DNA from: Collinsella sp. AM18-10
GTDB taxonomy: Bacteria > Actinomycetota > Coriobacteriia > Coriobacteriales > Coriobacteriaceae
Assembly (NCBI RefSeq): GCF_003471585.1
Contig: NZ_QRJO01000008.1
Span: 11,604 to 75,603 of the forward strand
Reading direction: 5' to 3'
Length of the DNA stretch: 64,000 nt
A program made the translations under genes and the position numbers. Each line of letters opens with the position of its first letter. Positions within the stretch are counted from its first letter, which is position 1. The notes under the pieces were generated by a model, which ran no database searches, had not been told where the DNA came from, and was given only the letters and a program-made list of their open reading frames with translations. Shown here piece by piece: positions 23,312 to 53,881 of the stretch.

Positions 23312-23349
23312 CAACTACGCAGAACCATCGACAAGAAAGGGGCCGTGAC

Positions 23350-28992: not shown

Positions 28993-30216
28993 GTGGAGAC
29001 TCGTCAGACAAAGCCTTATCGCATCGCCTCTCTCTTTGCGGGATGCGGTGGTCTTGACCTCGGTTTCGCCGGGGGGTTTGATTTCCAAGGCAAGCATTTT
29101 GCTCGTTTGGCCACTGAAGTAGTCTATGCCAACGATTTCGATCGCGATGCCGTGACCTGTTTTAATGAGAACATCCCGAATTACGATGCCGCCGCTAATT
29201 GCATCGAGAAGGATATTCGCCAGGTTGAGCTTGACGAGATACCGGATTACGATATTCTCCTTGCCGGCTTCCCTTGCCAGCCCTTTTCCAATGCCGGCCT
29301 TCGCGGTGGCGTAAACGATAAATACAACCGTGGAACCCTTTTTGAGGAATGTGAGCGCATCCTAAAGGGGAAAATTAATGCAGGCAAGAAGCCCAGGGCA
29401 TTCGTCTTTGAGAACGTGCGCGGAATCATGTCTTCTAAGATGGATGACGGAACTCCCGTCATTGCTGAGATTGAGAACCGCATGAGGATACTTGGCTACA
29501 ACGTCTGTCACCGGCTTGTGAAGGCGAGTAACTATGGTGTGCCCCAGAACAGGTTCCGACTCTTGATTATCGGCATAGATAGTTCTCTGAACAAAACGTT
29601 TGATTTCGATGAGATGGATCGCGTTGTCGACTCAGAGCAGCTGCCTTCCGTTTCTGCTGGGCGGCCTGAGAAGTTGCTCCTGGGGTCCATCCTTCAAAAT
29701 CCCTCGGTTGAACACGAAAATGGGGATTTCTGGTCGTATACCGATGCCACTCAGGCCATGATTGAGCAGATCGGTCCCTGCGCTCATGGCGATAAGGCTT
29801 TTAAGTATTTTACCGAAGACATGACCATTGGCGATCTCCCCGAGGTGGTCTTTGAGGGCCGGTCGTGGAAGGATATTCCCTACGAACTTCTTAAGCCCAG
29901 GTTTAAGAAGATTGCCGATGATCCAAAACGCTACCACGCCCCTAAGTTTTTCCGCAGGTTCGCTTTTGGCGAGATTAACGGTACGATTACGGCCTCAGCG
30001 CAGCCGGAGAATTGCGGCATCACTCATCCCGTTGAGAACCGCCGCTATACAGTTGGCGAGATTGCGCGAATCCAGTCCTTCCCGGATTCTTACGATTTCA
30101 GCAAGATTCCCTTGCAGTCACGTTATAAGGTTATCGGCAATGCTGTGCCGCCGGTGCTTGGCTGGGTCATTGCCAAAGCCCTGACGAACAAGCTCCTGGA
30201 GGCTGACGGTGAGTAA
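28993..30216 (+). CDS. DNA (cytosine-5) methyltransferase of an LlaJI-type restriction system
   Basis: A 407-residue m5C methylase. Seen in order: RIASLFAGCGGLDLGFAGG (I, AdoMet), VYANDFDRDAV (II), LAGFPCQPFSNAGLRGG (IV, catalytic Cys), FVFENVRGIMS (VI), NYGVPQNRFRLLIIG (VIII), RIQSFPDSYDF (IX) and VIGNAVPPVLGWVIAKAL (X). It protects host DNA from the two restriction genes that follow. The start is GTG; no strong ribosome site is seen. It overlaps the next gene by 8 bases. Specificity lies in the region between VIII and IX and cannot be read by eye. Confidence 0.95.
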   Translation: METRQTKPYRIASLFAGCGGLDLGFAGGFDFQGKHFARLATEVVYANDFDRDAVTCFNENIPNYDAAANCIEKDIRQVELDEIPDYDILLAGFPCQPFSNAGLRGGVNDKYNRGTLFEECERILKGKINAGKKPRAFVFENVRGIMSSKMDDGTPVIAEIENRMRILGYNVCHRLVKASNYGVPQNRFRLLIIGIDSSLNKTFDFDEMDRVVDSEQLPSVSAGRPEKLLLGSILQNPSVEHENGDFWSYTDATQAMIEQIGPCAHGDKAFKYFTEDMTIGDLPEVVFEGRSWKDIPYELLKPRFKKIADDPKRYHAPKFFRRFAFGEINGTITASAQPENCGITHPVENRRYTVGEIARIQSFPDSYDFSKIPLQSRYKVIGNAVPPVLGWVIAKALTNKLLEADGE

Positions 30217-32017: not shown

Positions 32018-32020
32018 GCA

Positions 32021-33472
32021 ATGAAATCGGTGATGGTCCGCGAGCTAAGGCCCTTTTCTCTTACTTGGCTTGCTGACGTGCTGGGATGTACGGTTGCGAG
32101 GGCAAAGACCCTCGTTGGCGACATGATGGCGCGCGGTATTGTGCGGTACCGGACGGGAAAGAAAGCCGATCCCGAGGAAGCCGATGTGGAGAACGCCGCT
32201 CCCTCTGAAGTCTATCAGTTTCGCTTCGTGGGCCTGGTGATGACCGAAGGCGCGGTGATTATTGTCTATCCCAAGTACTTCCACGACCGGATACCTGTTA
32301 TTGATGAGCTCAGGTTGATAATGCGAGTTCTCAAGCGTGATGCGGGCATCGCGGTGCTGACGAGTTTGGAAGACACCGATGAGGGCACTAGCGACAAGTT
32401 GTCCGTAATGCTGGCGCTGTTGGAGCTGTACGGCGAGTACGGTGAGTACTCGAACTACGTGGAAGATCGCGAACTCAACGGTAACGGGAGTATTGACTGG
32501 AACCGTACAATTGACGGACACTTGCCCGTTCTCTCGAACTGTCGACCGATATACATGGAGTACGAGACGCGCAAGACGTATCGCGATGACTCTGACTTCA
32601 TCACGCGGCTGCATCGCGCCGTGCTGACCGAGTGCTCGCGTAAGTTCGGGGAAGTGGGTATCGACAAACTGCTTTCGCTCGATGAGGTGTGTCTTTCGGA
32701 CGAGGACATCGAGACTTTCGGCGATGTTGAGATGCTAGGTTGGCGTCTGGAGCGCGAGCGTGCGGCCCAGTTCTTGGACTGGAAGCTCTTAACGCTCGAT
32801 TTGCTTGAGCGCTACCTGCTGCTGCGTGAGAGCGAGGTACGCAGTGATGAGGTCCAGGCACTGGGGACAACGAGCTTTTACCACCTGTGGGAAGAGGCCT
32901 GCAAAACGGCTCTCGGCGATGCGCTTGGTAAGCGGCTGGGCGCGCTCGGGCTTACGCTTGAGGGTAAGTGGGCGGCTGATAGTCGGAAGAAGTTGATCGA
33001 GATAATTCCACGGCCCCTGTGGGAGCGCTGGCGCGGCGATGGGTTTGCTGAGCCCGAAGGTACCGATACGCTCATCCCTGATGCCATTGCCATTGCAAAT
33101 GGACCCGATGGCGAGCGGCTGTTCTGTATCTGTGACGCGAAGTACTATGTGCCGAGTGCAAATGGCAAGATGGAGCACCAGCCGGGGCTGGAGTCGGTGG
33201 CCAAGCAGTTCTTGTACCAGAGTGCATACCGGGAGTTTATCGAGGCTTGCGGGTTCGACCGGGTGGTGAACGCGTTTCTAGTGCCGGGGACCGTTGATAG
33301 GCCCGAGCTGATGGCGAGGGTGTCGTTTCCGGGCGTGATTGCGGAGGAAGATAAGCCGCTCAACAATTTCATTAACATGTTAATGTTGCCGGCGGAGGTC
33401 GTGTTCGAGGCGTATCTTCGCGGAGAGATATTGAATACTTGCCGACTACTTGCATTTGAGGGTACTTGCTAG
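32021..33472 (+). CDS. LlaJI-family restriction endonuclease (McrC-like partner)
   Basis: A 483-residue nuclease subunit. The N-terminus reads like a winged helix (FSLTWLADVLGCTVARAKTLVGDMMARG), followed by FRFVGLVMTEGAVIIVYPKYF. Nuclease core near residues 345-375: TLIPDAIAIANG then LFCICDAKYYVP, the PD-(D/E)xK pattern, and QFLYQSAYREFIEACGF. The length and layout match LlaJI family enzymes. It starts 3 bases after the McrB-like gene. Together they should cut unmethylated DNA in a nucleotide-dependent way. Confidence 0.93.
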   Translation: MKSVMVRELRPFSLTWLADVLGCTVARAKTLVGDMMARGIVRYRTGKKADPEEADVENAAPSEVYQFRFVGLVMTEGAVIIVYPKYFHDRIPVIDELRLIMRVLKRDAGIAVLTSLEDTDEGTSDKLSVMLALLELYGEYGEYSNYVEDRELNGNGSIDWNRTIDGHLPVLSNCRPIYMEYETRKTYRDDSDFITRLHRAVLTECSRKFGEVGIDKLLSLDEVCLSDEDIETFGDVEMLGWRLERERAAQFLDWKLLTLDLLERYLLLRESEVRSDEVQALGTTSFYHLWEEACKTALGDALGKRLGALGLTLEGKWAADSRKKLIEIIPRPLWERWRGDGFAEPEGTDTLIPDAIAIANGPDGERLFCICDAKYYVPSANGKMEHQPGLESVAKQFLYQSAYREFIEACGFDRVVNAFLVPGTVDRPELMARVSFPGVIAEEDKPLNNFINMLMLPAEVVFEAYLRGEILNTCRLLAFEGTC

Positions 33473-33674: not shown

Positions 33675-35834
33675 TCAGTCCCGCTTCTCCGGGTCATATC
33701 CCTTTGTATACACGGTAAAACTAAGGTCATAGATCATGCCGGTGCTGCAGACACATGCGTCGGGCGTGTTCCATGTGTCCTGGACGGTCAGGTCGGTTGA
33801 GACACGCTCGGGCTCATCAATTCCAAGCAATGGAATGGGCTTAGCCATCTGATCGGCGCTATTTATCTGCGCAATGATCTCCAGCAACTTGTATAACTTG
33901 ATATGCCAGGAGCTGTACGGGCGCTCGCCGGGCCCCTTGAAATCCAGTGTGCATTTTGATTGCGGCCTTTCGGCGAGTCGGCTCAAGCGTTCAAAAAGCG
34001 CTGGGTACTCGACTCCTGGAAACTCGACTCGTACATATCGATTGCCATCGCGGACGACTCCGTACCACATTACAGAGTATGGAAAGCCGATCCTATCCGG
34101 TCGTTTGATTTCTGTCCTGCAATTGGGCTGGTTGACGATAGACAGCCATGTCGCATAGAGCTCGTCGGAAATAAGGTCACTCGCTTGGTATGTTGGGCCG
34201 AGACCATCGAGGACAAAGTTGCCAAGACGCTCAAAATAGTGGGCACAATCTGTTAGGCCTTTTTTATATGCCGTATCGGCCTTTCTCTGCATATTGAGCG
34301 CGACATCGCGGGGTGATTTGCGACCAAGATGTTTTTTGGTGTTATATCGCGGGTTGCAGTAAAGCTTGGTTTCCTTGTTATATCGGTCGCAGTATTTGCT
34401 GTTGGGACCGGTCGGAAAAAAGAGCGAACCGCAGGTTTGGCATGACATCGGCATAATGCCGCACAGCAGCAGCTCGTGGAGGATGCGGGCATAAAGGCTT
34501 GCGAAGGACCATTCCTTTTCGGTGAAGTAGAGCTCTCCTGCCTTTGAAATAACGGCTTGAAGCCCAACGAGCCTATTGAGGTTTTCCTGGTCGTTAAGCT
34601 CTGCATGCGTATGGAAGTCTCCATTTGCGAAGATCTGGTTCTCGCGCATAGCTTCTAGATAATTTTTACGAAACGCCTGCATAAAGGGGGCGCTATTCAT
34701 CCGCTTTATATCGTTCAAATGTTCTACGAGCTTTTGGGCCGTTTCGTTTCCGGGCAAGTGCTTTTTGGCTGCGCATGCAAAAGCTTCGCCAAAGCGGATG
34801 ATTGCCGGCAGCTGCTCATCGAATAATCGAAATTGTCTCGGGTCGCTTGTTTTGATGGCGGCTGGGAAAAACTCTTCGTTTTGCGCGAGCAGGCTAGGTG
34901 CCTCGGTGTTTTTAAGCAGCGGGGCAAGCTCCAGACATTCCTGATAAAAAACAATGAGAAGCGCTCGAAAGAGCTCGGTATTGGTGCAAACACAAGCTGT
35001 TTCTATCTGTGATTTGACCTTTGGAAAGTTGTATCTTGGATTGTCGTGGTCATACGGCACCGGTGCTGTTAGATCGGTCTTGCCGTTGGTAGCGTTAATG
35101 CTCATGTCGTTCGACTCGAGTTTGAGATAGGAGCTAAAGAGGGACGCTATTTCTTGCTTGTTGAGTTGGCCCGATGTTGTAATCACCGCGCGGTACAAGC
35201 GGTTGATTTCGTTGCACTCAATAGCGTTGTTGTCCATCCAGCAGCTGTAATAGCGATAGTCAGGAATCGCAGTGATGTTCATGACGCACTGTCTGCAGAC
35301 ACTTTCGAGGAGATATCTGGCCATGCCGGAAATCTCTCCGTGCGCATGGCGCGTAATGACCTTGTCGATTATCGGAGCAAAGAAATCGAGATCGCTTTCC
35401 TTTTGTTTTTGAAGGTTGACTTCGATTTCGGCTTCGTTCAATTCTGCTTGTGCGGATTCTTGGTCGGGGTCGTCTGGATCGAGCTGGTCGTCATGGCCTG
35501 GCTCGGCTGCCCAGTCCATCGAAGCTTGTTGCGCATGGTGAGGAGCAGTAGAGGACTGGCGAATGGCGTTTTGCAAATCGATATAAAAGCGCTGGTTTGC
35601 TCGCTCACGAAAGTGGTCTCCGATTTCGTTGAAAAGCGAGCTTAAGTCAACGCGCAATAGGTCGTTGGCTATGGAGACGAGATTCCATGCGCTTGCATTG
35701 CCGGTTGCGTTTTCGTCACCGGCACAATCAATCTCTGGCGTCCTGTTAAGAAGAAGCATACGGGGATTGACGGGGGAGCGAAGAAAGCCAGCCTCAAAAC
35801 CCCAGTTAAATGGTTCTTTTTCGGACTCAAGCAT
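33675..35834 (-). CDS. Large unknown protein with zinc-finger-like motif (DUF6076-like)
   Basis: A 719-residue protein. Near residue 465 it has MPMSCQTCGSLFFPTGPNSKYC followed by CNPRYNTKKHL, a CxxC...C...C metal-binding pattern that I associate, from memory, with DUF6076 proteins of Firmicutes and Coriobacteriia. The N-terminal half includes an acidic linker (about 120-145) and ARYLLESVCRQCVMNI with two Cys. No catalytic motif is visible. It stands alone between convergent and divergent neighbours. Low GC and odd codon use agree with transfer. Confidence 0.75.
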   Translation of the reverse strand: MLESEKEPFNWGFEAGFLRSPVNPRMLLLNRTPEIDCAGDENATGNASAWNLVSIANDLLRVDLSSLFNEIGDHFRERANQRFYIDLQNAIRQSSTAPHHAQQASMDWAAEPGHDDQLDPDDPDQESAQAELNEAEIEVNLQKQKESDLDFFAPIIDKVITRHAHGEISGMARYLLESVCRQCVMNITAIPDYRYYSCWMDNNAIECNEINRLYRAVITTSGQLNKQEIASLFSSYLKLESNDMSINATNGKTDLTAPVPYDHDNPRYNFPKVKSQIETACVCTNTELFRALLIVFYQECLELAPLLKNTEAPSLLAQNEEFFPAAIKTSDPRQFRLFDEQLPAIIRFGEAFACAAKKHLPGNETAQKLVEHLNDIKRMNSAPFMQAFRKNYLEAMRENQIFANGDFHTHAELNDQENLNRLVGLQAVISKAGELYFTEKEWSFASLYARILHELLLCGIMPMSCQTCGSLFFPTGPNSKYCDRYNKETKLYCNPRYNTKKHLGRKSPRDVALNMQRKADTAYKKGLTDCAHYFERLGNFVLDGLGPTYQASDLISDELYATWLSIVNQPNCRTEIKRPDRIGFPYSVMWYGVVRDGNRYVRVEFPGVEYPALFERLSRLAERPQSKCTLDFKGPGERPYSSWHIKLYKLLEIIAQINSADQMAKPIPLLGIDEPERVSTDLTVQDTWNTPDACVCSTGMIYDLSFTVYTKGYDPEKRD

Positions 35835-37998: not shown

Positions 37999-38069
37999 CC
38001 GCCGCGCTGAATGGCGCGCCTGATTGACAGGCCGTCGGAAAAGTCCGGACATTCTGCCAATCTCGGTCG

Positions 38070-39674
38070 CTACATCGTTCCCTTGCTCGCGGCGTAATGT
38101 TCCGCCTGTTTAAGGGCGTTCTCGTAGGCGCGCTGCTTTGCTTCGTACTCTTGCGCGTAGCGCTCCTGTTCCACTTGGCTGGGAACGGGTACGGTCATGC
38201 TTCGCAGGTCCTTGGGAGATAGCTGTGCAAGCGAGTCTCCGTGCGAGGAGGCCAAGAGCTTCTGCTGTCCTTCATCGGATGACAGGTAGGCTAAGAAGAA
38301 CCGTGCTAGTAGTTCATCTTTAAAGGATGCGCAGAAGACGACATCGCAAGGGACAATGAGCTTAGGGCATAACTGGGGTTTCTGGGGTGCCGGTTCGCGC
38401 TTCATGCTTCCCGGCACTACGAGGGCCAGCTTAAATGGCGGTCCGAAGCGTGAGATCATTATGCAGGTTTCATACTCGCCCAGCGGTTTGAGACGATAGA
38501 AATAACCTGGATCCGTATCGCCCATATCGTAAATATCCGTATCGGATACGCGCTCGGGTAGATCTTCGAAACCGATGGTCGTTCCATCGACTAAGTGTTT
38601 AAGCGATAAGTAGTAGCAGTCGATTCGTCGGTCCGTTCTGCCAAGACCCATCTGTGGCACCTTTAAAAGGGTGCTACGCGGAATGCCGCGGCGTATGTCC
38701 GCTACGGTGCCAAAGCGAACGAAGGACTCCTCTGCAAAAGAGGTGCTTTTAGCTTTCGGAAGTAAAGGCCAGATTTTTTCAGCACCCCGATCGCCGAGAT
38801 GCCAATGCGTTGCATCGGTTGTTTCGGCATAAGCATGGCTAATCGAGTCTTGGATCTGATGCATGAGCTCACTTGTCATGGGCTTGTCATCAAATGACCG
38901 CCCATCAAAGAGGAAATATGACTCGTTGGGTTTGCGGTCGCCTAGAAATAGTAGGGCATAGCCATCGCTATTGGCTGCGATCGTATTGGGAAGCAACACT
39001 ATCGCTGTCAATAGTCCAAGCTGGCAGAGCAGACGGCGCCCGTCTGCGGCGCGTGCCAGGTTGAGCAGTCGGTTGGAGACTTGTACGACCGCAATGGAAT
39101 TCGGACGTTCACATGCAAGGGAAGCTGCGAGAAAAACGTAATACCATTCGCTGACCGAAAGCGGGCTTGGTACATCGACAAGTGTTTGCAGTTGATGGGC
39201 CCTCGACGTAAGGAAATCCTGAACATGCTCATTTGCAATTTCGAGCGAGGGCTCAAATTGAGTGAGGGGGATTTGCTCGGGGGGTCTGCAGTAGATGAGC
39301 ACGGACTCATCGGTACGGGGCATGGCGCCCGATTCTGGCGTTGAGGCAAAGACATCGGCTTTGGTAAACGAAAAAGACGGGTCAGCGGATGTGTCGCGAG
39401 TTCCAAATTCGATGTTTTCGGGGTCCTTAAGGTCGATGCCCCAAATAGACCATGCGGATCCATCTGCATAGTCCTGGGCAAACTCAAAATCTCGGCAGCA
39501 CAACTCGATAAGCGTATGAACTCTTAGCGTTGGCTGGAGTTTTGAGACCATAAAGGAAACCAGGTTTGCAAGAAATGCGCTGCTATGAGGCTCTGGCTCC
39601 TGATTGTAGGCATGGTAAAGGCCTAGCTGGGCTTGTTCTGCGCGAGACAGAAGCACGATTGCCTCCTCGGACAT
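38070..39674 (-). CDS. Degenerate N6-adenine methylase / type I specificity-like fusion protein (2)
   Basis: A 534-residue protein with the same plan as 20667-22103. Remains of a methylase fold: LIELCCRDFEFA where the AdoMet glycine motif should be, WGIDLKDPENIE (motif II position), KADVFAS (III), ESVLIYCRPPEQ where NPPF/Y should be, then SIAVVQVSNRLLNLARAADGRRLLCQLGLLTAIVLLP. The C-terminal half (VADIRRGIPRSTLL, SLAQLSPKDLRSMTVPVPSQVEQERY, coiled coil) looks like one specificity half-domain. Catalytic residues are lost, so I infer DNA recognition only. Divergent from the membrane-protein / ClpX-like array. Confidence 0.65.
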   Translation of the reverse strand: MSEEAIVLLSRAEQAQLGLYHAYNQEPEPHSSAFLANLVSFMVSKLQPTLRVHTLIELCCRDFEFAQDYADGSAWSIWGIDLKDPENIEFGTRDTSADPSFSFTKADVFASTPESGAMPRTDESVLIYCRPPEQIPLTQFEPSLEIANEHVQDFLTSRAHQLQTLVDVPSPLSVSEWYYVFLAASLACERPNSIAVVQVSNRLLNLARAADGRRLLCQLGLLTAIVLLPNTIAANSDGYALLFLGDRKPNESYFLFDGRSFDDKPMTSELMHQIQDSISHAYAETTDATHWHLGDRGAEKIWPLLPKAKSTSFAEESFVRFGTVADIRRGIPRSTLLKVPQMGLGRTDRRIDCYYLSLKHLVDGTTIGFEDLPERVSDTDIYDMGDTDPGYFYRLKPLGEYETCIMISRFGPPFKLALVVPGSMKREPAPQKPQLCPKLIVPCDVVFCASFKDELLARFFLAYLSSDEGQQKLLASSHGDSLAQLSPKDLRSMTVPVPSQVEQERYAQEYEAKQRAYENALKQAEHYAASKGTM

Positions 39675-39806
39675 ACGTTGTGCGATATGGAGTGCGCCGT
39701 TGTTGGCAATGGCACGATGCGGTCAATTCATATTATCAGCCTAATTCCGATTAATTTGAAATTGAGTGTTTATAGCTTAATCCGCGAGGGTATCAACTGC
39801 GATAAG

Positions 39807-39830
39807 TTTTTAGAAATAAAATTCTAAAAA
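39807..39830. promoter_or_regulatory. Possible operator TTTTTAGAA-N6-TTCTAAAAA
   Basis: A perfect 9-bp inverted repeat with 6-base spacer, in the AT-rich divergent region between the methylase-like gene and the 39879 gene, 48 bases before the latter. It shares the TTAGAA/TTCTAA half-sites, in opposite order, with 22334-22348. Confidence 0.45.
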
Positions 39831-39878
39831 TGGTCTGGCCTTCGGACCAATATTGCGACAGCAACGAAAGGACAGCTA

Positions 39879-40616
39879 ATGAACGGATACGACATGTACA
39901 GGATCGAGCCAGACATCCCCAAGAAGCCAACTGTGATGAATATTGTCGGCATGATTCTGCAAACCCTATTTGCGGTTGTGCTGTACGTTGTCGCCGTCGA
40001 CATGATGTGCTTGCTGACGACGTGGCTCGGCGGCTTTATGTTCGAGATCGGCGAGGGCAACACGGTGATTCCGCTCCACTCATGGCGTCTGGTGGCGTTT
40101 AGGGTGTACTGGGTTGTACTGGGCGTGGGCGTCGTTGCAGCGCTTGCCCGCAAATGGATCGTGCTGTTAACGGGAGCGCGTGAATCCGACATGTGCGAGC
40201 TGCTCGGTGCAATTGAGGATGCGGGCGCATTCGCGTCCGTCGTGTGCGCGATCGTCTGTTTGCTGGGCTATGCCGCCGCATTTGATTGGTGGGCCGGCGT
40301 TACCGGAAAGATGGCTTCGGATTCCCGCGCCAATGATTACCTGCTTTGGGCTGTTGTCTTAACCATTGGAACGATTGTTGAGTGGCGAATTGTCGAGGGA
40401 GTCTTCAAGGCTTTATTCCCTCATGAGTGCCTGTTTCACGGGCTTCGCTTTGCGTCCGCCTGCGTGGTTACTCCTCTGCTTGCGCTTGTGCCCACCGCAC
40501 TGACCATCGTCGTGTGCGCGGTGGTGGTAGGCCTATTTGCCGGGATTCTGTTTGCATCGCTTGCGATCCCCGTAGTTTTCGCGTTCCTCGCCATCGCCAT
40601 TGCAGCCAGCCATTAA
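39879..40616 (+). CDS. Multi-pass membrane protein at the head of the ClpX-like array
   Basis: A 245-residue protein with about five membrane helices: IVGMILQTLFAVVLYVVAVDMMCLL, VYWVVLGVGVVAALA, ASVVCAIVCLLGYAAAFDWW, LLWAVVLTIGTIVEW and a hydrophobic C-terminal third. It has the same helix layout as 36385-37209, which suggests a shared family, though identity is low by eye. GAAAGGACAGCTA is the ribosome site. It begins the plus-strand array running to 48658. Possibly a membrane effector or anchor. Confidence 0.7.
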   Translation: MNGYDMYRIEPDIPKKPTVMNIVGMILQTLFAVVLYVVAVDMMCLLTTWLGGFMFEIGEGNTVIPLHSWRLVAFRVYWVVLGVGVVAALARKWIVLLTGARESDMCELLGAIEDAGAFASVVCAIVCLLGYAAAFDWWAGVTGKMASDSRANDYLLWAVVLTIGTIVEWRIVEGVFKALFPHECLFHGLRFASACVVTPLLALVPTALTIVVCAVVVGLFAGILFASLAIPVVFAFLAIAIAASH

Positions 40617-40658
40617 TGAATCACGCGCGCCGAGGCTCGCATAAAGAAAGGAACGGCC

Positions 40659-40865
40659 ATGTCGCTAATCTCTAGCGCTCAAAAGGTTCTGTTGCTCGCC
40701 GTACTTACCGCTCTTGTGGCTGGTGCCCTGATGTACGAAGTCCTGCATCCCACCCTGTTCCCGCTGCTCAAGCAGGGTATTTTACAGCTGCTCTACCACA
40801 TTCCAGTCTTTACGCAGCCGGGCAACGTGATCTATTTGGAGTCGGTGACCTCGCTGGCGCTGTAG
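40659..40865 (+). CDS. Small membrane protein, 68 aa
   Basis: One clear membrane helix, VLLLAVLTALVAGALMYEVL, and an amphipathic C-terminal part LFPLLKQGILQLLYHIPVF. AAAGAAAGGAACGGCC precedes the ATG. It lies 42 bases after the larger membrane gene and 61 before the ClpX-like gene. Size and place suggest an accessory membrane subunit or holin-like effector of the array; this is inference. Confidence 0.65.
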   Translation: MSLISSAQKVLLLAVLTALVAGALMYEVLHPTLFPLLKQGILQLLYHIPVFTQPGNVIYLESVTSLAL

Positions 40866-40926
40866 GAGTTTAAGGGCTTGGGCCCACGTCATAGGTAAGA
40901 AAGCAAGTTTTGAAAGGAAAACACCC

Positions 40927-42696
40927 ATGACTCAGAAGCAGTATCGAAGCGTCGATCGCTACCAGGACCTGCTCAATCGAATTGCGCCTACGCGCCTGGT
41001 GGAGCAGACGCGCCAGAGCGTTATTGGCCACGAGGGAAGCTTGGAGGCCTTTGTGACGGCGCTGAGCTTTGAGGTCAACCGCTGCGTGATGTTGGCACGC
41101 GGCGCCGATCCGCGCGAAGTCCTTTCGCCCGCTGCCATTTTGGTGATGGGTTCTACCGGTACGGGAAAGACCCACACCATCAAAGCCGTGGCGGATGCCG
41201 CGGGGCTCAAGCTGTTCGTGTTCGATGTCTCCACCATGACGGGAGAGGGCTGGCGCGGTGCCAGCATGAGCAACTGCCTGTCGCAGGTCGCGGACTATCA
41301 GGCTGCGAATCCCGGCGATATCTGCCTGGTGCTCTTTGACGAGTTTGACAAGGCGGTTCGTGCCGAGCCCGATGGGAGCGACGTTGCGTCCAGCTTTAGT
41401 CCGTCACAGTCGTTCCTTAAGCTCTTGGAAGGCGGGGAGATGCCGTTTGAATGCGAGAGCCAGAAGGGCACGGCGATGAAATCGCTCAATCTTGATCAGG
41501 TTGTCTGCATTTTGGGCGGCGCCTTTATGGGCTTGGATGCTCTGGTGCGCAAGCGCCTGGCCGGCAAGGCCGGTACCATGGTCGGTTTTGGATCTTCGTA
41601 TGCCGCCGTGCGCACCGCCGCAAAATCGGCAAACGAGCTGCGAGACAGTGCGACCATCGAGGATGTTGAGACTTGGGGCATTATGTCCGAGCTGTGCGGG
41701 CGCATTGGCTCGGTGATTAACTTTAACGCCTTGAGCGTGGACGACCTGGTCCAGATTGCGTATGAACAGTACCTGCCCAAGTACAACAACATGATGGGAA
41801 ATGGCGCCAAGATGGAACTGACGGCAGATGCTGCTCGCCTTGCGGCGAAGCGCGCGGTTAAGGAAGGTGCCGGCGCGCGCGGTATGCTCCGTCAGCTGCG
41901 TCCCCTTATGATGTACGCCTGGAGGGACATGCGGGAAGATACCTATATTTCCCGTGCGACCTTGGTCGTGAGCGACGGGGAACTTGCGGTTGCGTACGAG
42001 CGCTCTCATGAGCCGCGGGGCTTTTTGCAGGAAGAGATGGGGGAGAATTCGCCCTTTCTGAACGGGAGGGAGATTGAAGCCCTGACGCTGGTGAACAACT
42101 GGATGGAGCATGAGGACGAGGACGAGCATAAGCCGTATCAGCCTGAGTTTGCTTGGCTGGTGGATTTGGTGGACGGCTCGGCGCTCGACAAGATCGTGCA
42201 GGGCGGCAAGGCATTCGATCTTGCTGGGGTGTTGTTGCGCGGCGTTCCGTTTGATGGGCCGGAGCGCATTGCCGCCCACGAGCTGCTTAAGGCGTGCGCC
42301 TGCTACAACGACGTGCTCTATGCCGATCAGGACAAGTATCGCAACCTTGCTCAGGTGCTTACGCTCACCAAATTGGTGTACAAAAATTCGCCCGATTGCT
42401 TGCTGAGCCCGCTCGATGTGGTTATGAACGGCACGACTACGGGCAACGGTTTTCAGGGTCTTGGCGAGTGGGTCGATGCCATGAGCAGGTCCGAAAAGCC
42501 TTCGTTGGAAAAGTGGCAGTATCTGGCGGCCGGGGAGGCCCTGCGGATTTACGACCACTTTAGCAAGCGCCCCGACCAGGTTAAGGAGCTTGCCGCCGAG
42601 GTGTCCCTGATGCGTGTTGCCCTTGCAGTGATGGACGTTGAGGAGCGTGAGGCATTGGAGTGCGATCTTGAGAAGCTGCTCGCTTCGTGCGAGTAA
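40927..42696 (+). CDS. ClpX-like AAA+ ATPase with extra C-terminal domain
   Basis: A 589-residue AAA+ protein. Seen: AAILVMGSTGTGKTHTIKAVADAAGL (Walker A, 75-83), CLVLFDEFDKAV (Walker B, 134-144), LEGGEMPFE, VVCILGGAFMGLD, FNALSVDDLVQIAYEQYLPKYNNMM and the sensor-2 block KEGAGARGMLRQLRPLM near 315, all as in ClpX/HslU. There is no N-terminal zinc domain, and no IGF loop for ClpP is evident. About 230 C-terminal residues have no known family. GAAAGGAAAACACCC gives a good start. It probably remodels or loads a partner from the next genes. Confidence 0.85.
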   Translation: MTQKQYRSVDRYQDLLNRIAPTRLVEQTRQSVIGHEGSLEAFVTALSFEVNRCVMLARGADPREVLSPAAILVMGSTGTGKTHTIKAVADAAGLKLFVFDVSTMTGEGWRGASMSNCLSQVADYQAANPGDICLVLFDEFDKAVRAEPDGSDVASSFSPSQSFLKLLEGGEMPFECESQKGTAMKSLNLDQVVCILGGAFMGLDALVRKRLAGKAGTMVGFGSSYAAVRTAAKSANELRDSATIEDVETWGIMSELCGRIGSVINFNALSVDDLVQIAYEQYLPKYNNMMGNGAKMELTADAARLAAKRAVKEGAGARGMLRQLRPLMMYAWRDMREDTYISRATLVVSDGELAVAYERSHEPRGFLQEEMGENSPFLNGREIEALTLVNNWMEHEDEDEHKPYQPEFAWLVDLVDGSALDKIVQGGKAFDLAGVLLRGVPFDGPERIAAHELLKACACYNDVLYADQDKYRNLAQVLTLTKLVYKNSPDCLLSPLDVVMNGTTTGNGFQGLGEWVDAMSRSEKPSLEKWQYLAAGEALRIYDHFSKRPDQVKELAAEVSLMRVALAVMDVEEREALECDLEKLLASCE

Positions 42697-42828
42697 TCGC
42701 CGGCTGTTCCTCTTTCCTTTCTCTTCTTTTCTCAAGCGGCATAGACGCCGTCTCAACCGCCCTGCGTGAGTTTTTGTCCGCATGGGATGGTATTCAACAC
42801 ATGCAACAACTAAATCGGAGGTTTGACC

Positions 42829-45800
42829 ATGGCTACGTGGGAACTGAACTGTCAATCGAGCCCGTCGTCTGCGGGCGACAAGGAGCTTGCCCCCTATCTC
42901 GCACGCCAAAAGGTGATGCGCGAGTTTTTTGAGCGTGCGCTGTTTGCCCCCAAGGACCAGGACGGCGCCAAGAATCAGGGCGACAACGGCCTGTATTTTT
43001 TGGGCGCCACGACGGGCTCGGGTAAAAACTACACGGCCGAGCAGGTCACGGCAGACCTGATTGCCGGTGGCTGGGATGAGTCGGGCTGCTTTAACAAATG
43101 TCCTGGTCGCCGTACCTTGGTGTTTGTGGTGCCGGGCAAGGACAACCGCGACAACTATGTTGCAAGCGTGCGCGAATTGCTGGTTGAGCAGGGCATGAGT
43201 TGTGGTGAAGCGGCACACATGGTGTTCGATCTTCCGCGTGCTGGAGAGAACATCACAAACTGGATTGATACCGCGTTTGACAAGGGCAGCATGAGGCCGC
43301 GTGATATTCCTTGTCCCTTTGGAGCGAAGGACGAGGCTGTTGTTCGCGACATTACGCACGCCTGGAACAGCGCGATGGAAATCGCTGATGATCTTTTGGG
43401 CATTTTGGACAAGAAGGATCGCTTGGGAAGTGTTGTCGACCGCCTGACTCCAGGGCTGTGGGATAAGCTGGCGTTGGCAGACGCGAGCTTGCGTCGAGCG
43501 GTGAGCCGTGGACGCCAGAGCATCACGCGTGGCTTTGAGGAGATTCCCCGGATTTGGCCCTCGGCATTGCTTAACGATAAGCGCACGCCGCATGTAATTG
43601 CATGCACGCCGCAAAAGCTCGTCAATAGAATCGATACGGTGACAGGAGCGGGCGTCGTGTTCTTTAACGCAACGGTTGCCGACGAATGCCTGTTTATCTT
43701 TGACGAGATCGACCATGCGAAGGCCGATATGCTGTCGATGCTGGCAACGGGGCATATGAAATTTCAGCCCGACGAGATGCTGCGTATTCTTGACCGTCAT
43801 TTTAATGGTGGCGTGGTGGATCCTCTGCTGTTGGGAAATCGAGACCAGTGGATGGCGGTCTATACGCATGCCTCGACCTCGGGCGAGCACGAGGGGTCAA
43901 ACGCGGCAACGGGCAAGGTTTCGCGCACAAGTGTGGAGACGGCTGCCGAAGAGATTGCCAAGAACGCCCAGCGTATGCAAAAGATGATCGCTGCGTGTAT
44001 TCAGGATATGGAGCTGCAGCAGCCTTTTGCCTTGTCTGACAAGGCGAAAGACGAGCAGCTTGCCGGACGTCACCTGTTTGGCAGCGACGATATTTCGGTG
44101 GGCGATGGCCTGTCGAATCCCTTGCGTTATGAGTTCGATACTCGCCGCAACCGCAACATGATTACGTCTTGCGGGACGGACGAGCAGCAGACCGTCAACA
44201 AGGCGGTGCGCCGTGCGCGCGGCCTTGTCAGGATGGTGGTGGGCCATCTTGCCCGTTGCGCCACGCTTATGGACAAGCTGTACTACGGCAGCATTTCGTA
44301 CAAGGACGATCTTTCGCGCAAGAATATCATCGATGCCATGGGCATTAGGAACGACCAGACCAACGAGAAATACTTCTGGAATTCGCTGATGCTGGCACTG
44401 TTCTTTAAGGACCGCAAGAACGACGAGATCGATGCCGTTGACGACTCGATGTATGCGCGTGGTGTTGACTACCTGGTGATGGAAACCACCATCGACCATA
44501 TGTTTACCACGTACCTGACTAATCACGGCATTGAGCGCATGCCCGAGGCGTATCTGGCCTCCATTGCCGCCAAGGCTCCCTGCGTGTGCATGAGCGCTAC
44601 CTGGAATGCGCCGACCATTAAGAACTTTGATCTGGATTACCTGGACGAAGTGCACGGCGTGGTTCGTAAAGATGCTTGGATTGGCGAGCTCAACCAGGAG
44701 ATCGTGCGGCAGACCAAGCTGTTCAACAAGCAGGCGGCAACGGTGTACGACGTCGACGTTGTTTGGGTTGACGAGTCCAAGAAGCTTGCCGGCATGGCGG
44801 CCGTGGCCGGCGGCGCCTATGGCGGCGGTATCGTGTCGCCCGACGAGGTGTACGAGCATGCGATGGAATTCTTTGACCAGATTGGCGTGAGCGAAGGGCT
44901 TGCGGCGTGCCTGCGCCGAAAGATTGCCGACAGGGTGACCACGAGCGATGCCGAAAGCATCGAGTTTGAGCTCAAGCGTCTGAGCAAGACGCTCGTTGCC
45001 GTGAGCGCCTGGGCGCGTGGCGTGGCGCGCAGTGAGCAGCAGGCGGGAGCCATCTTTACGACACGACACATGGGAAACCATGGCGACTTTAATAGTTTGG
45101 CGCTGGATCTTGCCCGAGAAATCGTTGCCGAACTGGTGATTAGGAACGTTAAGCACCCCGAGGCGTCGTACGAGAAGTCGCTCGAGGAAGCCAAGGATAT
45201 GGTGCCGTGCTTTAACGCCTCCGGCTGGGAGGAGGGCTGGCGTGACGCTCAGGGGCGTCTGAAGGACGGCAAGCCGACCCTGATGTTTATCAATCTTGCT
45301 GCTGGCGGCTTTTCCAAAAACCTCAAATACGAGGTGCCGGAGAGCCTGCGCGACACGGTGCGCCAGGTGGACTGCGGCTTCGATAACGCTGAGCGACATC
45401 CCAAGATGGATCTCGATTTTTTGTACGTGGAGTCGCCCACGAGCCGCTTGACCTGGGGAGTCGATATGAGCTCAAAGAAGTTTGACCAGCAGGCGCTGCT
45501 TGGCGTGGTCGAACAGGAGGAGCTCGTGACGCGCGGTGAGATCCCGTTTATTCAGAAGCGCCATCGCGTGCGCACGGTACTGGCGGGCGTTGGCGGAAAA
45601 CTGCCGGTGCGCGACACCCTCTCTTATCAGGTCGAAGGAGCCCGCATTGTGGCGCAGGCCGTGGGTCGCTTGATGCGCACGAGCGTAAAGATGCCGCACG
45701 TACGGGTGATGCTCGATCGCGAAATCGTCGGCGATTGCGATTTTTCGTTCCTGCATGATTTGCCGATGGGCTACGAGCTGGAGCAGGTGGTTGGTGCCTG

Positions 45801-46779
45801 TGCGGCCGTCAACAATCACATGGCGGACAAGAAGCAACACGCTGCTAGCAAGCAACAGAACCTTGCTGCCTTTAGGAACAATCTGGCGAAGGAGAAGCAC
45901 GAGAGGCTGGCGTGGAGGGTTACCTCGCTCGATGCGCGCGAGGAAGATCTGGCCGCCTTTGACGACGAGCGCGACTTTTATCTGCATCATTTTTGCCTGC
46001 CGTGGGAGGACCTTGCGAGCTATCCTGCGCGCAAAAGCACTGCGCTACACATGCCGTTCCCCGCGAGTGGCTATGCGTACGCGGAGGGCGGAGCGTGCAA
46101 GGTGCCGCATTTTGGGTTCCCCAGCTACGACGGTGAGCCTGTCGAGCAGATTGCCGCCCGTCTGGAGGAGTGCTGCTGCTATAACGAGGGCTTTAAGGGC
46201 GCGAAGGTTCGCCAGGTAAGCCAGACGGCGGCCCGTGTGCCCGAGCTGTTGTCGATTCGGGAGGTGCGCGAGCGTTGGTCGCGCGACGGGGTGCCCGCGA
46301 TGCTGCAACCGGCGGCGACGGCGCACATGACGCCCTATATGTTCCAGGCGGTGTATCTGGGAGAACTGGGAGAGTCTGCCGGTAGGGCCATCTTCGAGGC
46401 GTATTACGATGGCCGGTATTTGCTTGCGCGTGGTGACGCTGCCCATGCCGAGACGGGCGGCGATTTTGAGGTGCTCGATGCCGCCGGCAACAAGACCGGG
46501 GTGTGGATCGACTTTAAGCACTATCGCATCGGCGCCTACGAGGCCTACAGGCGCAGCGGCGGCGAGACTACGGATGCCGAGCGCTTTAAGGCAAAGGCTC
46601 AAAAAGTTGGGGCGAAGCGCCTGTTGATCGTCAATGTTTTGGCCGATGAAGCGGCGCTGGAGCTCCGTCAAAAGCCGATCGATGGCGAGGGGATGGTGTT
46701 CTCCTTCCCCTATATGGCAGCTGATGGAGCAATCAGTTTGGAGATGATGGAGGCGATCGGTCGTGTAATCGAAGCATAG
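42829..46779 (+). CDS. Large SF2-type helicase with C-terminal nuclease-like motif
   Basis: A 1316-residue protein. Helicase signs: GLYFLGATTGSGKNYTAEQV (motif I, 57-73; Asn follows the P-loop Lys), FIFDEIDHAK (II, 289-298), VCMSATWNAPTIKNF (III, near 585) and EGARIVAQAVGRLMRTSV (VI, near 937-955). The last 130 residues have GGDFEVLDAAGN (1210-1221) then GVWIDFKHYRIG (1225-1236), a D...DxK arrangement like PD-(D/E)xK nucleases, followed by KRLLIVNVLAD. I infer a DNA or RNA translocase that also cuts. Ribosome site CGGAGG. It is 132 bases after the ClpX-like gene and 13 before the next. Confidence 0.8.
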   Translation: MATWELNCQSSPSSAGDKELAPYLARQKVMREFFERALFAPKDQDGAKNQGDNGLYFLGATTGSGKNYTAEQVTADLIAGGWDESGCFNKCPGRRTLVFVVPGKDNRDNYVASVRELLVEQGMSCGEAAHMVFDLPRAGENITNWIDTAFDKGSMRPRDIPCPFGAKDEAVVRDITHAWNSAMEIADDLLGILDKKDRLGSVVDRLTPGLWDKLALADASLRRAVSRGRQSITRGFEEIPRIWPSALLNDKRTPHVIACTPQKLVNRIDTVTGAGVVFFNATVADECLFIFDEIDHAKADMLSMLATGHMKFQPDEMLRILDRHFNGGVVDPLLLGNRDQWMAVYTHASTSGEHEGSNAATGKVSRTSVETAAEEIAKNAQRMQKMIAACIQDMELQQPFALSDKAKDEQLAGRHLFGSDDISVGDGLSNPLRYEFDTRRNRNMITSCGTDEQQTVNKAVRRARGLVRMVVGHLARCATLMDKLYYGSISYKDDLSRKNIIDAMGIRNDQTNEKYFWNSLMLALFFKDRKNDEIDAVDDSMYARGVDYLVMETTIDHMFTTYLTNHGIERMPEAYLASIAAKAPCVCMSATWNAPTIKNFDLDYLDEVHGVVRKDAWIGELNQEIVRQTKLFNKQAATVYDVDVVWVDESKKLAGMAAVAGGAYGGGIVSPDEVYEHAMEFFDQIGVSEGLAACLRRKIADRVTTSDAESIEFELKRLSKTLVAVSAWARGVARSEQQAGAIFTTRHMGNHGDFNSLALDLAREIVAELVIRNVKHPEASYEKSLEEAKDMVPCFNASGWEEGWRDAQGRLKDGKPTLMFINLAAGGFSKNLKYEVPESLRDTVRQVDCGFDNAERHPKMDLDFLYVESPTSRLTWGVDMSSKKFDQQALLGVVEQEELVTRGEIPFIQKRHRVRTVLAGVGGKLPVRDTLSYQVEGARIVAQAVGRLMRTSVKMPHVRVMLDREIVGDCDFSFLHDLPMGYELEQVVGACAAVNNHMADKKQHAASKQQNLAAFRNNLAKEKHERLAWRVTSLDAREEDLAAFDDERDFYLHHFCLPWEDLASYPARKSTALHMPFPASGYAYAEGGACKVPHFGFPSYDGEPVEQIAARLEECCCYNEGFKGAKVRQVSQTAARVPELLSIREVRERWSRDGVPAMLQPAATAHMTPYMFQAVYLGELGESAGRAIFEAYYDGRYLLARGDAAHAETGGDFEVLDAAGNKTGVWIDFKHYRIGAYEAYRRSGGETTDAERFKAKAQKVGAKRLLIVNVLADEAALELRQKPIDGEGMVFSFPYMAADGAISLEMMEAIGRVIEA

Positions 46780-46792
46780 CCAGCCGTGTGGC

Positions 46793-48658
46793 TTGGGAGA
46801 CATCGCGGTTTCCGAGCTTGTGTTGCGGCTTGATCCCGCGGCCGCCGAGGAGCGCTATTCTGTCTTTTGGTGTAACGTCGGTGATGCGGGCAAGCATGCC
46901 GTGGCAGACTTTATGGCCGATGTGTGCCAGACGGGCAAGGTTGTCGCGCTCACCCAGCTCGAGGACAACCGCATCTTTCTCATGGTCAAAGCGGGCGCGC
47001 GGACGGGCGACCTTAACGCCCCACTCGGCCATGAGCAAATGGTTCCGATTAAAACTTATTGGGATGAGCTGGACGATTATGTCGCGTTGCGCCTGCTGTT
47101 CAACTCGTGTTCGCAGTTTGAGGGGATTGAGGACGAGATCCCCAACGACGCGGGGCACCTGTATGTCATAAGCGCCAAGGGTGCTCGTCGTGATGCCGTC
47201 GAGGAAGCCGGAAGGGGTCCTGCCAAGATTGAAACGGTCGAGACCGTTATCAACGAGGATTGCACCTTCGAACTCAAGATTCGAACGTTTACCAAGCGCC
47301 GAGTGCTCATCGGTCGTGCGGCAGGCAACGAGTTAGAACTCAAGAAGATCAACAGCCAGGTGGGTTACAGGCTGTCGCCTGTGGCTACGGTGGTGCTGGC
47401 GCACGGACAAAGTGACGAGTACATCCTGCGCCGCGCCAAGGGCGATAAGCCGTCCAAACGTCGTGACCTTACGTTTTCTGCCCAGGCGGAAAAGGTTGCC
47501 TATACCAAGAAGGGCATCCTGTACCGAGAGCTGCAGATTCTTGAGCGCCGGTACAGCGATTTTGCCCGAGTGTCGCTCGGGGAGTATCCGCGCAAGAGCT
47601 TCTACGAGGTTCTGAAAAGCGACCGATATGCCCGCGTGGTTGCGGAGCGTTCGTTGGGGCAGCGGGCTGTGGTGTCGTTTGCGGGTGACGGGCTTGATGG
47701 GATGGCGCGCCAGTTGGTCGATCGGCTCAATGATTCTTCGTGGGGCGTACACGCGTCGTATGGCGGCAGGGCTGTTGATCCGCTGGCATGGAATATCGTC
47801 GTGGTGCCCAACGAGGTTGCCGAGGACGATGGCTATGCCCTGCATGCTGGCGTGGTTGAGCAGCATGTGACGCCGGATGTGTGCGAGCCGCTGGTCAAGG
47901 CGGCATCGAATGCAAAGGTGCGGGGCGCTCAGGAGGGAGTCCTGGGAGCCATGCTCAAAGAGCTGCTGGTAAAGCAGGACGTTGCCGACGGCCGTGTGAG
48001 GGCGTTTGGCCTTGGTTCTTTTGACATTGAGTCGGTGACGGTCTGCGGCGTGGTCAATGTCCCACGCAAGGAAGAAGGCAAGATTGAGCTCGATGAGCGC
48101 CTTGCAGCCCTAACGATTGATGCTGACGGGGGCATGGACTACGCCTCGCATTCCATCGAGGATGGTCCCGTGGACGAGATGGAGTTTGAGCTGTTGACGG
48201 CCGATGGCAAGCTCGACAAGGACGCCTATATCTTTGACGTGCGGGCGGGTGGGCAGTCTATGCTCGCGCGCGTGCGGGATACGGGCTTGACGACCTTCTC
48301 TAACAGCTTTGCGACCTTGGTGCGCGATTACCAGCTTGCGGGTAAGGCAGGTCGTAAGAAGGAGTTTTTCGAAAGCTACAACTCGCCCTATTACGGCATT
48401 GGAACGTTCGAACGTGCAGGGATGACCTGCTACTTTGTGGGCGTCAACAACGGCACCAAGGAGGACCTGGCGACGGCGATTCATGTGCGCTCGATTGAGG
48501 TGCTCGAAGGCGACGATCTGTTCGAGCTGCTGGTCCAGCTGGTGAATGTGGGACTATCGCGCCATGGGGCTCCCTCCAGGTGGCCGATTCCGGTGAAGTA
48601 TCTCAACGAATATGCGGCGCGTGAGGGTGCGGCGGGAGAGTCTGGCATTTGTTTGTGA
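46793..48658 (+). CDS. Unknown protein with PIWI-like C-terminal pattern
   Basis: A 621-residue protein without a secure family. The C-terminal 100 residues, with TCYFVGVNNGTKEDLATAIHVRSIEV then LFELLVQLVNVGLSRHGAPSRWPIPVKYLNEYA, resemble the last strand and helix of PIWI domains in prokaryotic Argonautes. VVEQHVTPDV and GAMLKELLVKQDV could be the MID-PIWI junction. A catalytic Asp set is not recognisable, so it would be inactive or of the RE type. The start is uncertain: TTG at 46793 or GTG at 46817, both without a strong ribosome site. Close linkage to the helicase implies a shared complex. Confidence 0.55.
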   Translation: MGDIAVSELVLRLDPAAAEERYSVFWCNVGDAGKHAVADFMADVCQTGKVVALTQLEDNRIFLMVKAGARTGDLNAPLGHEQMVPIKTYWDELDDYVALRLLFNSCSQFEGIEDEIPNDAGHLYVISAKGARRDAVEEAGRGPAKIETVETVINEDCTFELKIRTFTKRRVLIGRAAGNELELKKINSQVGYRLSPVATVVLAHGQSDEYILRRAKGDKPSKRRDLTFSAQAEKVAYTKKGILYRELQILERRYSDFARVSLGEYPRKSFYEVLKSDRYARVVAERSLGQRAVVSFAGDGLDGMARQLVDRLNDSSWGVHASYGGRAVDPLAWNIVVVPNEVAEDDGYALHAGVVEQHVTPDVCEPLVKAASNAKVRGAQEGVLGAMLKELLVKQDVADGRVRAFGLGSFDIESVTVCGVVNVPRKEEGKIELDERLAALTIDADGGMDYASHSIEDGPVDEMEFELLTADGKLDKDAYIFDVRAGGQSMLARVRDTGLTTFSNSFATLVRDYQLAGKAGRKKEFFESYNSPYYGIGTFERAGMTCYFVGVNNGTKEDLATAIHVRSIEVLEGDDLFELLVQLVNVGLSRHGAPSRWPIPVKYLNEYAAREGAAGESGICL

Positions 48659-52564: not shown

Positions 52565-52921
52565 ATGCAAATTAGAGGAGAGGCCGCGATCGCCTGCGGA
52601 TTCATGGCGGGCCTGGCAACGGGGTTGCTGTTCGATGGATGTTTCGACAGCTATATCAATCGATTCTGCGATTTTGGTTTTTCGAGAGGCAAGCCTTGGA
52701 AAACAGCGCCAGCTCGTCAAGAGGTGGCCGCGCCCATCGAGCCCCGCAGTGTGGATACCTCAAAAACCAAGGTAATCGTCACTAAGAACGGCAAGATTTA
52801 CCACCGTTCTACGGGGTGCAAAAGCCTTCCTCAAAACGCCATTAAAACAAGCATACCATTAGCGGCTGCACTCAAGCGAGGCAAGACGCCCTGCCCAACA
52901 TGCTGCCCGCCAACAGCTTAG
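52565..52921 (+). CDS. Secreted or membrane-tethered small protein with C-terminal Cys motif
   Basis: A 118-residue protein. The N-terminus (AAIACGFMAGLATGLLFDGCF) is a hydrophobic helix or signal anchor. The C-terminal 48 residues read VIVTKNGKIYHRSTGCKSL then ALKRGKTPCPTCCPP, a YHxxxC...CxxC module often attached to nucleases or surface proteins and probably metal-binding. TAAGGAGGG is a strong ribosome site before 52565. Its stop overlaps the stop of the convergent nucleotidyltransferase gene. Its role is unknown. Confidence 0.75.
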   Translation: MQIRGEAAIACGFMAGLATGLLFDGCFDSYINRFCDFGFSRGKPWKTAPARQEVAAPIEPRSVDTSKTKVIVTKNGKIYHRSTGCKSLPQNAIKTSIPLAAALKRGKTPCPTCCPPTA

Positions 52922-53580
52922 ACGATTCCCAAGATACGCTCCGCAACGCCATAGGTTTCAGCGAACGCACGGACCCTTGCTTTCTCTTTTTTGGATAGCG
53001 AGCTGAATACTACATTGAGCTTTTCCTTGTTTAGCAGTGGGAGCATGCTTTCCACGGCACGGGCGTCCTTTTCGGCCTTTTTACCCCGTTCGCCATTGAT
53101 TATCATCTTATGAATCGCATAGGCCTCAGGGGCTGGAACGGTTACAACGTGACCCAAGCAGCGAACGCCGATGGTATTTTTCAGAATGACGTCCATATGC
53201 CATAACGCCTGGGCCGTCACCCCGATGTTCGTCTTGAGGGCAGGTTCTTTTCCGGCTCCCATTTTTCTGATGAGAAATTCAACTTCAAGGCCGGTGATAT
53301 CTAGCAACTTTGTTGTTCCGGTCATGCGGTCGGATTCGACAAAGAAACCTCGTTCTTTTGCGAGGGCGGTCAGGCGCGCCGCGGGGCTGGGGCGTCGTAG
53401 GTTTCGAACAAGAAAGTCGACATCCATTGTTTTGATATTTGGGCAAAAACCTGGAAGAACCTCGGCCTCTCTGTAGGCAAATTCCGCCCAGGACCCGATG
53501 AGGATAACGTGGTCGATGCACCCTGCTTCCTCGACTAGATCGAGTACTTTTAAAAAAGCTTGTTGCTGCTCAGTCAACAT
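52918..53580 (-). CDS. Nucleotidyltransferase-fold protein (toxin-like partner)
   Basis: A 220-residue protein. Seen: HVILIGSWAEFAYREAEVLPGF then TMDVDFLVRNLRRP, the GS...DxD pattern of nucleotidyltransferases (spacing longer than usual), LDITGLEVEFLIRKMG with the third acidic site, and APEAYAIHKMIINGERGKKAEKD as in AbiEii/GSU2403-type proteins. The start at 53580 overlaps the previous gene by 11 bases; longer frames run into that gene. The pair resembles type IV toxin-antitoxin modules, in which the toxin transfers nucleotides to a cell target. Activity is inferred. Confidence 0.75.
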   Translation of the reverse strand: MLTEQQQAFLKVLDLVEEAGCIDHVILIGSWAEFAYREAEVLPGFCPNIKTMDVDFLVRNLRRPSPAARLTALAKERGFFVESDRMTGTTKLLDITGLEVEFLIRKMGAGKEPALKTNIGVTAQALWHMDVILKNTIGVRCLGHVVTVPAPEAYAIHKMIINGERGKKAEKDARAVESMLPLLNKEKLNVVFSSLSKKEKARVRAFAETYGVAERILGIV

Positions 53581-53881
53581 TTGGCACCCTCCCCAACGCA
53601 CGTATGATTTGCTTTTGAGATTGCTTCTGTTCCTTGATGGCGGCCGCAAGAGCCCTTCGACGATCGATTTTGGCTCGCAGCTCATCAACCTCTGCGGCAG
53701 GGACATAGTCACTTTTGACCTTGTCGCCGAGTCGATAGTTGAGATAGCAGTATTCGTGGCCCTTTATGTTTCGCATACGGATGCTGCCCTTTGGAAGGAG
53801 ACCCATTTCCTGCTCCATGAGACCCAAGAGGCGCCTCGAGCGTGCGTATTCCTCTTCCAGGACATCTTCTAAGACGGACAC
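53570..53881 (-). CDS. Small protein paired with the nucleotidyltransferase (antitoxin-like)
   Basis: A 103-residue protein: VLEDVLEEEYARSRRLLGLMEQEMGLLPKGSIRMRNIKGHEYCYLNYRLGDKVKSDYV, then a basic coiled coil KIDRRRALAAAIKEQKQSQKQIIRAL. The pattern of Gly-Ser-Ile, Tyr-x-Tyr and Gly-x-Lys-Val is like DUF6788-type proteins found beside nucleotidyltransferases; this link is from memory. GTG start at 53881 behind AGAGGGGAGGAGCC. A longer frame to 53980 lacks a ribosome site. First gene of the two-gene unit. Confidence 0.7.
   Translation of the reverse strand: MSVLEDVLEEEYARSRRLLGLMEQEMGLLPKGSIRMRNIKGHEYCYLNYRLGDKVKSDYVPAAEVDELRAKIDRRRALAAAIKEQKQSQKQIIRALGRVPNVD

Follow-up and report, generated by a model that had tools for sequence, protein, structure and literature searches.

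A gene cluster of Collinsella sp. AM18-10 bears on two questions: by what means the plasmid-defence pair DdmDE distinguishes plasmids from the chromosome, and whether conjugation itself is something that bacteria can sense. We analysed a 64,000-nucleotide stretch of this organism's genome (contig NZ_QRJO01000008.1, positions 11,604 to 75,603; here called the window), in which five plus-strand genes, A to E, lie in a row beside a divergent gene, M. D and E almost certainly constitute a DdmDE pair, and the sequence of C combines a ClpX-type AAA+ module with a C-terminal region that shares homology with the all-alpha domain (AAD) of conjugation coupling proteins. The DdmDE core is already known, and the ClpX-AAD partner is new as far as we searched: no description of it was found in the literature searched, where no DdmDE paper mentioned ClpX (subscription papers lay mostly outside this search). 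All five open reading frames (ORFs) of the row named in a preliminary description of this DNA were present, and the features, in window coordinates, are as follows.

38070 to 39674, minus strand: M, N6-methylase/type I specificity-like, degenerate, divergent from A-B-C-D-E
39879 to 40616, plus strand: A, membrane protein of 245 amino acids (aa) with about six hydrophobic segments (crude count)
40659 to 40865, plus strand: B, small membrane protein of 68 aa with one hydrophobic segment (crude count)
40927 to 42696, plus strand: C, 589 aa, with a ClpX-type AAA+ module at residues ~20-332, then a helical C-terminal region
42259 to 42627, plus strand: AAD-like region of C, residues ~445-567, matched by hhalign, blastp and the A7 profile
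42829 to 46779, plus strand: D, 1316 aa, DdmD-like SF2 helicase with a C-terminal PD-(D/E)XK-type nuclease
46793 to 48658, plus strand: E, 621 aa, DdmE-like Argonaute-type protein; the start seen in relatives is missing in the window copy
38043 to 42557, strand not applicable: block of M, A, B and most of C, missing from the related loci L002 and L003 (blastn breakpoints)

Window D matched the PADLOC family DdmD at 3.3e-6, the sole PADLOC family reached at E ≤ 1, and a D profile matched the DdmD proteins of Vibrio (1e-27) and Lactobacillus casei (1.1e-21). The D protein of locus L014, which belongs to a genome (G358) of another Coriobacteriales family, matched PADLOC DdmD at 3.5e-35, with a weak typeIV_DinG match (0.0034). 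The motifs TGSGKN (residues 62-67), DEID (292-295), SAT (589-591) and QAVGR (943-947) were present in D, whose open frame begins at TTG 42823 with ATG 42829 as the preferred start. Its nuclease residues D1212, D1228 and K1230 are invariant across the nine D proteins of alignment A5 and fall within the part of D that aligns with Vibrio DdmD (820-1275). E showed a DdmE-like fold, and the window and L014 copies of E are 25% identical. D was directly followed by E in the window and in L001-L003, L013 and L014, the two genes overlapping in L014.

The locus thus resembles DdmDE of Vibrio cholerae and L. casei in having a DdmD-like helicase-nuclease gene followed by an adjacent or overlapping gene for a DdmE-fold Argonaute-like protein, within a defence island. 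It differs in the addition of the ClpX-type C with its coupling-protein domain and of a divergent methylase/specificity-like gene, and in the structure-aligned identity of E to DdmE, which is only 15-18%. ApsAB of Escherichia coli ST38 likewise joins a helicase-nuclease to an Argonaute-like protein against plasmids, with the same helicase and nuclease motif types; however, ApsB, which carries a MID-type guide-pocket motif, is unlike DdmE (excerpts of PMC11096173), whereas the fold of E is DdmE-like.

In pPIWI-RE systems, a PIWI-like protein is found with a DinG-type helicase and nuclease function. Kinship or convergence with these had been proposed in the preliminary description, and the general combination of a PIWI-like protein, a helicase and a nuclease function is indeed shared; nevertheless, D is of DdmD type with a fused nuclease and E has the DdmE fold, and their matches to DdmD and DdmE ruled this relation out. 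The broader proposal of a defence-type locus holding a PIWI-like protein, a helicase-nuclease and a ClpX-like unfoldase was borne out, D and E being DdmDE and C matching ClpX. The statement that no named system has this set survived, as far as searched, for the ClpX-AAD partner and fell for D and E, which gave the match to a named system that had been listed as a refutation.

Searches for relatives, each scoring the ~8000 best candidates and using residues 300-589 alone as the query for C, returned 122 proteins for E, 101 for D and 16 for C, numbers that are not strictly comparable because of this candidate scoring and the partial C query. The alignments drew on 8 (A1), 28 (A4) and 15 (A11) of the 122 E proteins (120 listed), on 7 (A2) and 6 (A5) of the 101 D proteins and on 6 (A3), 5 (A6) and 13 (A9) of the 16 C proteins. 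D was rare, occurring in 3/43 genomes of the genus, 5/396 of the class, 1/396 in a phylum sample (G001 itself) and 2/138 in the family of G358. DdmD-type genes were also observed on plasmids of Nostoc sp. UHCC 0926 (L016, PADLOC DdmD 4.4e-39) and Persicobacter (L017, 3.3e-11), where they are followed by genes of 710 aa and 761 aa without a PADLOC match at 0.01.

Gene C matched the NCBIfam ClpX model at 1.2e-32 with 113.4 bits, below the curated equivalog cut-off of 359, and its profile matched ClpX structures at 7.8e-25 over residues 32-332. Like ClpX, C has Walker A (75-82), the pore motif GWRG (108-111), Walker B (136-142), VGFG (219-222) and the sensor-2 motif GARG (316-319); Walker A, Walker B, GWRG, GRIG and GARG are kept across window-type C proteins. 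The IGF loop of ClpX is its ClpP-docking loop, and the N-domain of ClpX binds zinc. At the position of that loop C reads VGF in the window and LGF in L014, and its stretch ahead of the AAA module is too short for the zinc-binding domain, so that C differs from ClpX in this respect as well as in bit score and in its extra C-terminal domain. It also differs from VirD4/TraG coupling proteins, with which it shares the AAD homology: its motor is of ClpX type, it has no hydrophobic segment (crude count), and PF02534 was absent at E ≤ 0.1 from C of the window, L001 and L014.

In a profile-profile comparison, residues ~450-550 of C matched coupling-protein AADs (hhalign 98%, 2.4e-13). A profile of the C-terminal region of C built from three sequences (A7) gave ten matches across 395 Coriobacteriales genomes, comprising two complete C genes (G001, G358), two 47-residue scars of C (G033, G035) and six other large proteins, which scored 1.1e-13 to 1.5e-4. 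All six were coupling proteins of the VirD4/TraG type: four matched PF02534 at 8e-43 or better, the fifth shares 98% identity with one of the four, and L033, the sixth, shares their N-terminus and match. In these proteins the AAD-like match sits C-terminal to Walker A, which is the slot of the all-alpha domain. The identical slot was found by blastp from window C to the L032 protein (4.5e-13) and from L014 C to the L035 protein (3.8e-12), the latter being an independent match from a protein only 30% identical to window C (across 574 aa, 5e-62). With a coupling-protein AAD profile, L014 C scored 7.8e-13 and window C 8.1e-12; among 1600 shuffled sequences run over three profiles, none did better than 0.21. 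Of the 8431 ORFs in all fetched loci, those that matched at 1e-3 were without exception C proteins, fragments of them or coupling proteins.

An unrooted tree of 14 short sequences set the coupling proteins apart from all C proteins (UFBoot 99), and a single ancestral AAD fusion would therefore be the simplest view. Counter to it, the window-type AAD profile ranked L032-type coupling proteins (1.4e-12) above L014 C (7.1e-10). Repeated capture of AADs from local elements is disfavoured by the same split. Collinsella coupling proteins were rejected as the nearest source, as the A7 search of whole genomes gave just one non-C Collinsella match at 1e-3 or better, the G024 protein; within 30 loci, L055 came next after it, at 4.6e-4. 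A tblastn search of plasmids with the AAD of window C gave nothing at 0.01.

The order C-D-E with a divergent methylase/specificity-like gene recurs in two Coriobacteriales families: L014 keeps the methylase/specificity-like gene on the minus strand followed by C, D and E, with 178 bases between C and D as compared with 132 in the window. Every C gene or scar detected in the order (4/4) is placed immediately 5' of D, and its 395 genomes yielded no C apart from D. In L002 and L003 the M-A-B-C block is gone as a unit, leaving the last 47 residues of C in an open frame, while the D frames run for 1315 aa without stops and E is also open. D and E are 99.9% identical between these two loci, so both scars may stem from one event. 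Since C is present in three of six Coriobacteriales loci (window, G001, G358), left as a scar in two (G033, G035) and lacking in one (G257), and since the database counts agree, C is a recurrent, dispensable partner of DdmDE. For 4 of the 16 C clusters, the longest contig equals that of an E cluster (85200, 32642, 32139, 17230), as expected if contigs are shared. We consider a functional link between C and DdmDE probable. The co-occurrence of the three large genes in conserved order, which the preliminary description had named as a check, was seen in the unrelated island L014. The unfoldase is not obligatory, as the Collinsella loci L002 and L003 have D and E with just a scar of C and L013 (G257) has no C.

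What might such a partner do? It seems an even question whether the locus is a DdmDE-type anti-plasmid system with C as an accessory sensor-unfoldase, and it is plausible, if just short of even, that C is aimed at conjugation proteins; the relaxase or relaxosome is suggested as a target by the homology of C to the AAD. Excerpts of earlier work describe the AAD as activating the channel and recognising the cognate relaxosome (PMC7434980) and as having a role in substrate recruitment (PMC12624023), and the relaxase as a protein that enters the recipient on the T-strand and on whose refolding and activity recircularisation of the plasmid depends (PMC10359608); the DdmDE mechanism is taken from an excerpt of PMC12409362. 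When a conjugative element enters, or readies to leave, the AAD-like domain of C would bind its relaxase or relaxosome in the manner of a coupling protein; unfolding by the AAA+ ring would follow, with or without ClpP docked on the VGF loop. The T-strand would lose its protein cap, recircularisation would be blocked, and DNA-guided E would mark the exposed DNA and recruit D for unwinding and cutting. Coupling-protein-like binding could let C recognise many elements by their relaxases or relaxosome proteins, and M may provide DNA contact or regulation. Tentatively, we put forward that C is a coupling-protein mimic, a captured conjugation cargo receptor fused to a ClpX-type unfoldase, which would recognise conjugative DNA through the relaxase on it, strip that relaxase and leave the naked strand to the DNA-guided nuclease formed by Argonaute and helicase; the exact order of the steps is doubtful. 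A DdmDE operon encoding an unfoldase with a conjugation receptor domain nevertheless offers a testable link, namely, recognition via the relaxase-relaxosome. If true, this defence would sense conjugation as a process and not a particular DNA sequence, protein-level sensing of conjugation would join plasmid defence, and a natural domain would be available for blocking plasmid spread in gut bacteria.

Several observations weigh against this proposal. In L002 and L003 (scar) and in L013, D and E are present but C is not, and an hmmsearch upstream of D in L013 detected no trace of it. Three D relatives carried on plasmids, one of which is in pieces, likewise showed no C within the fetched flanks of up to 8 kb; C is therefore not needed for DdmDE. 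Only two C lineages are known. The AAD match fades in distant coupling proteins, the weakest of the five compared (L037) reaching 0.008-0.009 by blastp and, with the window-type C profile, only shuffle level (2.9). An AAD fold of this region is putative: the AlphaFold model of C is poor (predicted local distance difference test [pLDDT] 51), residues 380-588 being predicted as helices only, with pLDDT <50 over nearly all, and the AAD alignment A10 matched no solved structure among PDB sequences at 0.01. AADs also have DNA-contact and channel-activating roles (excerpt of PMC7434980), and the target of C therefore need not be a relaxase. Finally, the start of E is damaged in the window, and this copy may be weak. 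L001-L003 open E at a GTG equivalent to window position 46763, directly after which the window has an in-frame stop; because this stop closes the GTG start, window E could start only at TTG 46793. A GGAGG lies just 5' of 46763 (by eye) and at some distance from the TTG. A database protein with one residue different over 621 (P0001) has the longer start, and intact E copies exist among relatives.

The loss of M, A, B and C as a unit from L002 and L003 while D and E stay open, together with ddmDE lacking C in L013 and D relatives lacking it in the plasmid flanks, would also fit C (with M, A and B) being a separate module, perhaps another defence system or a regulator, merely placed beside an ordinary DdmDE in a variable island. 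We regard this as unlikely, given that L014 has kept C-D-E and the opposite-strand gene though its C and E have diverged to 30% and 25% identity, and that C never stood apart from D in the 395 genomes of the order. C might instead serve DdmDE directly, remodelling an autoinhibited DdmD dimer or stripping DdmE from guides or targets, with its AAD-like domain binding D, E or DNA. ClpX relatives can remodel protein-DNA complexes, C lies just upstream of D wherever found, and the DNA-contact roles of AADs would suit such a task; yet the only relatives of the domain detected are coupling proteins, whose cargo is relaxosomes, and DdmDE elsewhere works without such a helper, so we give this view little credence. 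A donor-side role, in which C inhibits fertility by competing for relaxosomes with the coupling proteins of resident elements, and perhaps so favours a mobile element of the island itself, appears very improbable. A lone VirD4-like gene and a ClpP gene do lie ~15 kb upstream of C, with the same pair on the same contig in G001 and G033, but a Pfam scan of 19 window proteins gave no relaxase or VirB4 match, and defence accords better with the association with DdmDE.

Regarding the remaining genes, M gave only partial HsdS/MAD5-type matches and has RPPE where an NPPY-type motif is expected (by eye), in agreement with its earlier description as a dead methylase/specificity protein on the opposite strand. 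L014 carries a methylase/specificity-like gene in the position and strand of M (PF02384 8.3e-6); the two showed no significant BLASTP similarity to each other (E 0.30), and each weakly resembles the protein encoded at 20667-22103 (5e-4 for window M, 4e-4 for L014 M). The L001 copies of A and B are 89% and 91% identical to those of the window. Tblastn of A and B against L014 gave no match, and the suggestion that these membrane proteins are parts of the system was not upheld. Between the window and L001, dN/dS was 0.12-0.22 for M, A, B, C, D and E, values that reflect purifying selection; because of these values and the relatives found for C, D and E, the genes are more than chance ORFs. The window is Collinsella-like: G001, the closest of the genomes compared, has 24% of sampled words in common with it, the three named records carrying E are uncultured Collinsella metagenome-assembled genomes, and one database relative bears the name Collinsella aerofaciens.

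The lower-GC island noted previously was confirmed in 2-kb windows (0.53-0.60 over the five genes versus 0.61-0.68 across 1-14 kb), as was the LlaJI neighbour: a C5 methylase gene, a McrB-like AAA gene and the LlaJI nuclease gene (32021-33472, RE_LlaJI 9.4e-41) form a row upstream of the locus at 28993-33472, plus strand. A promoter and terminator scan gave a signal no better than chance. No plasmid or phage replication module, which had been named as a refuting match, was recognised among the families searched. Viral contigs held no relative when scanned with the D and E profiles; the C profile gave one short match (L021, 33% identity). A 719-aa protein with weak DUF6076 likeness (0.033) is encoded at 33675-35834 and a PF12281 nucleotidyltransferase at 52918-53712, both on the minus strand.

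A second Clp-linked cassette lies nearby. A VirD4-like coupling protein gene (23263-24834, plus strand; CD1115 family, 4.5e-98) is directly followed by a ClpP gene (24949-25551, plus strand), whose product is divergent with Ser/His/Asp retained (by eye). Inspection by eye of the surroundings of six coupling-protein loci revealed no type IV secretion genes, and no report of VirD4 with ClpP in a defense island was found in the literature searched. The pair could be another Clp-based system directed at conjugation, and this cassette of a lone VirD4-type ATPase and ClpP, from the same genus, may solve the same task in a second way. Among 53 coupling-protein matches in 42 Collinsella genomes, 30 loci were fetched, and a ClpP gene adjoins 13 of them. 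The methylase/specificity-like gene at 20667-22103 (minus strand) is divergent from the genes for a 305-aa protein, VirD4 and ClpP, and a relative of its product occurs near another VirD4-ClpP pair (L072, 6.6e-14). A divergent methylase/specificity-like gene is thus common to both Clp-linked cassettes.

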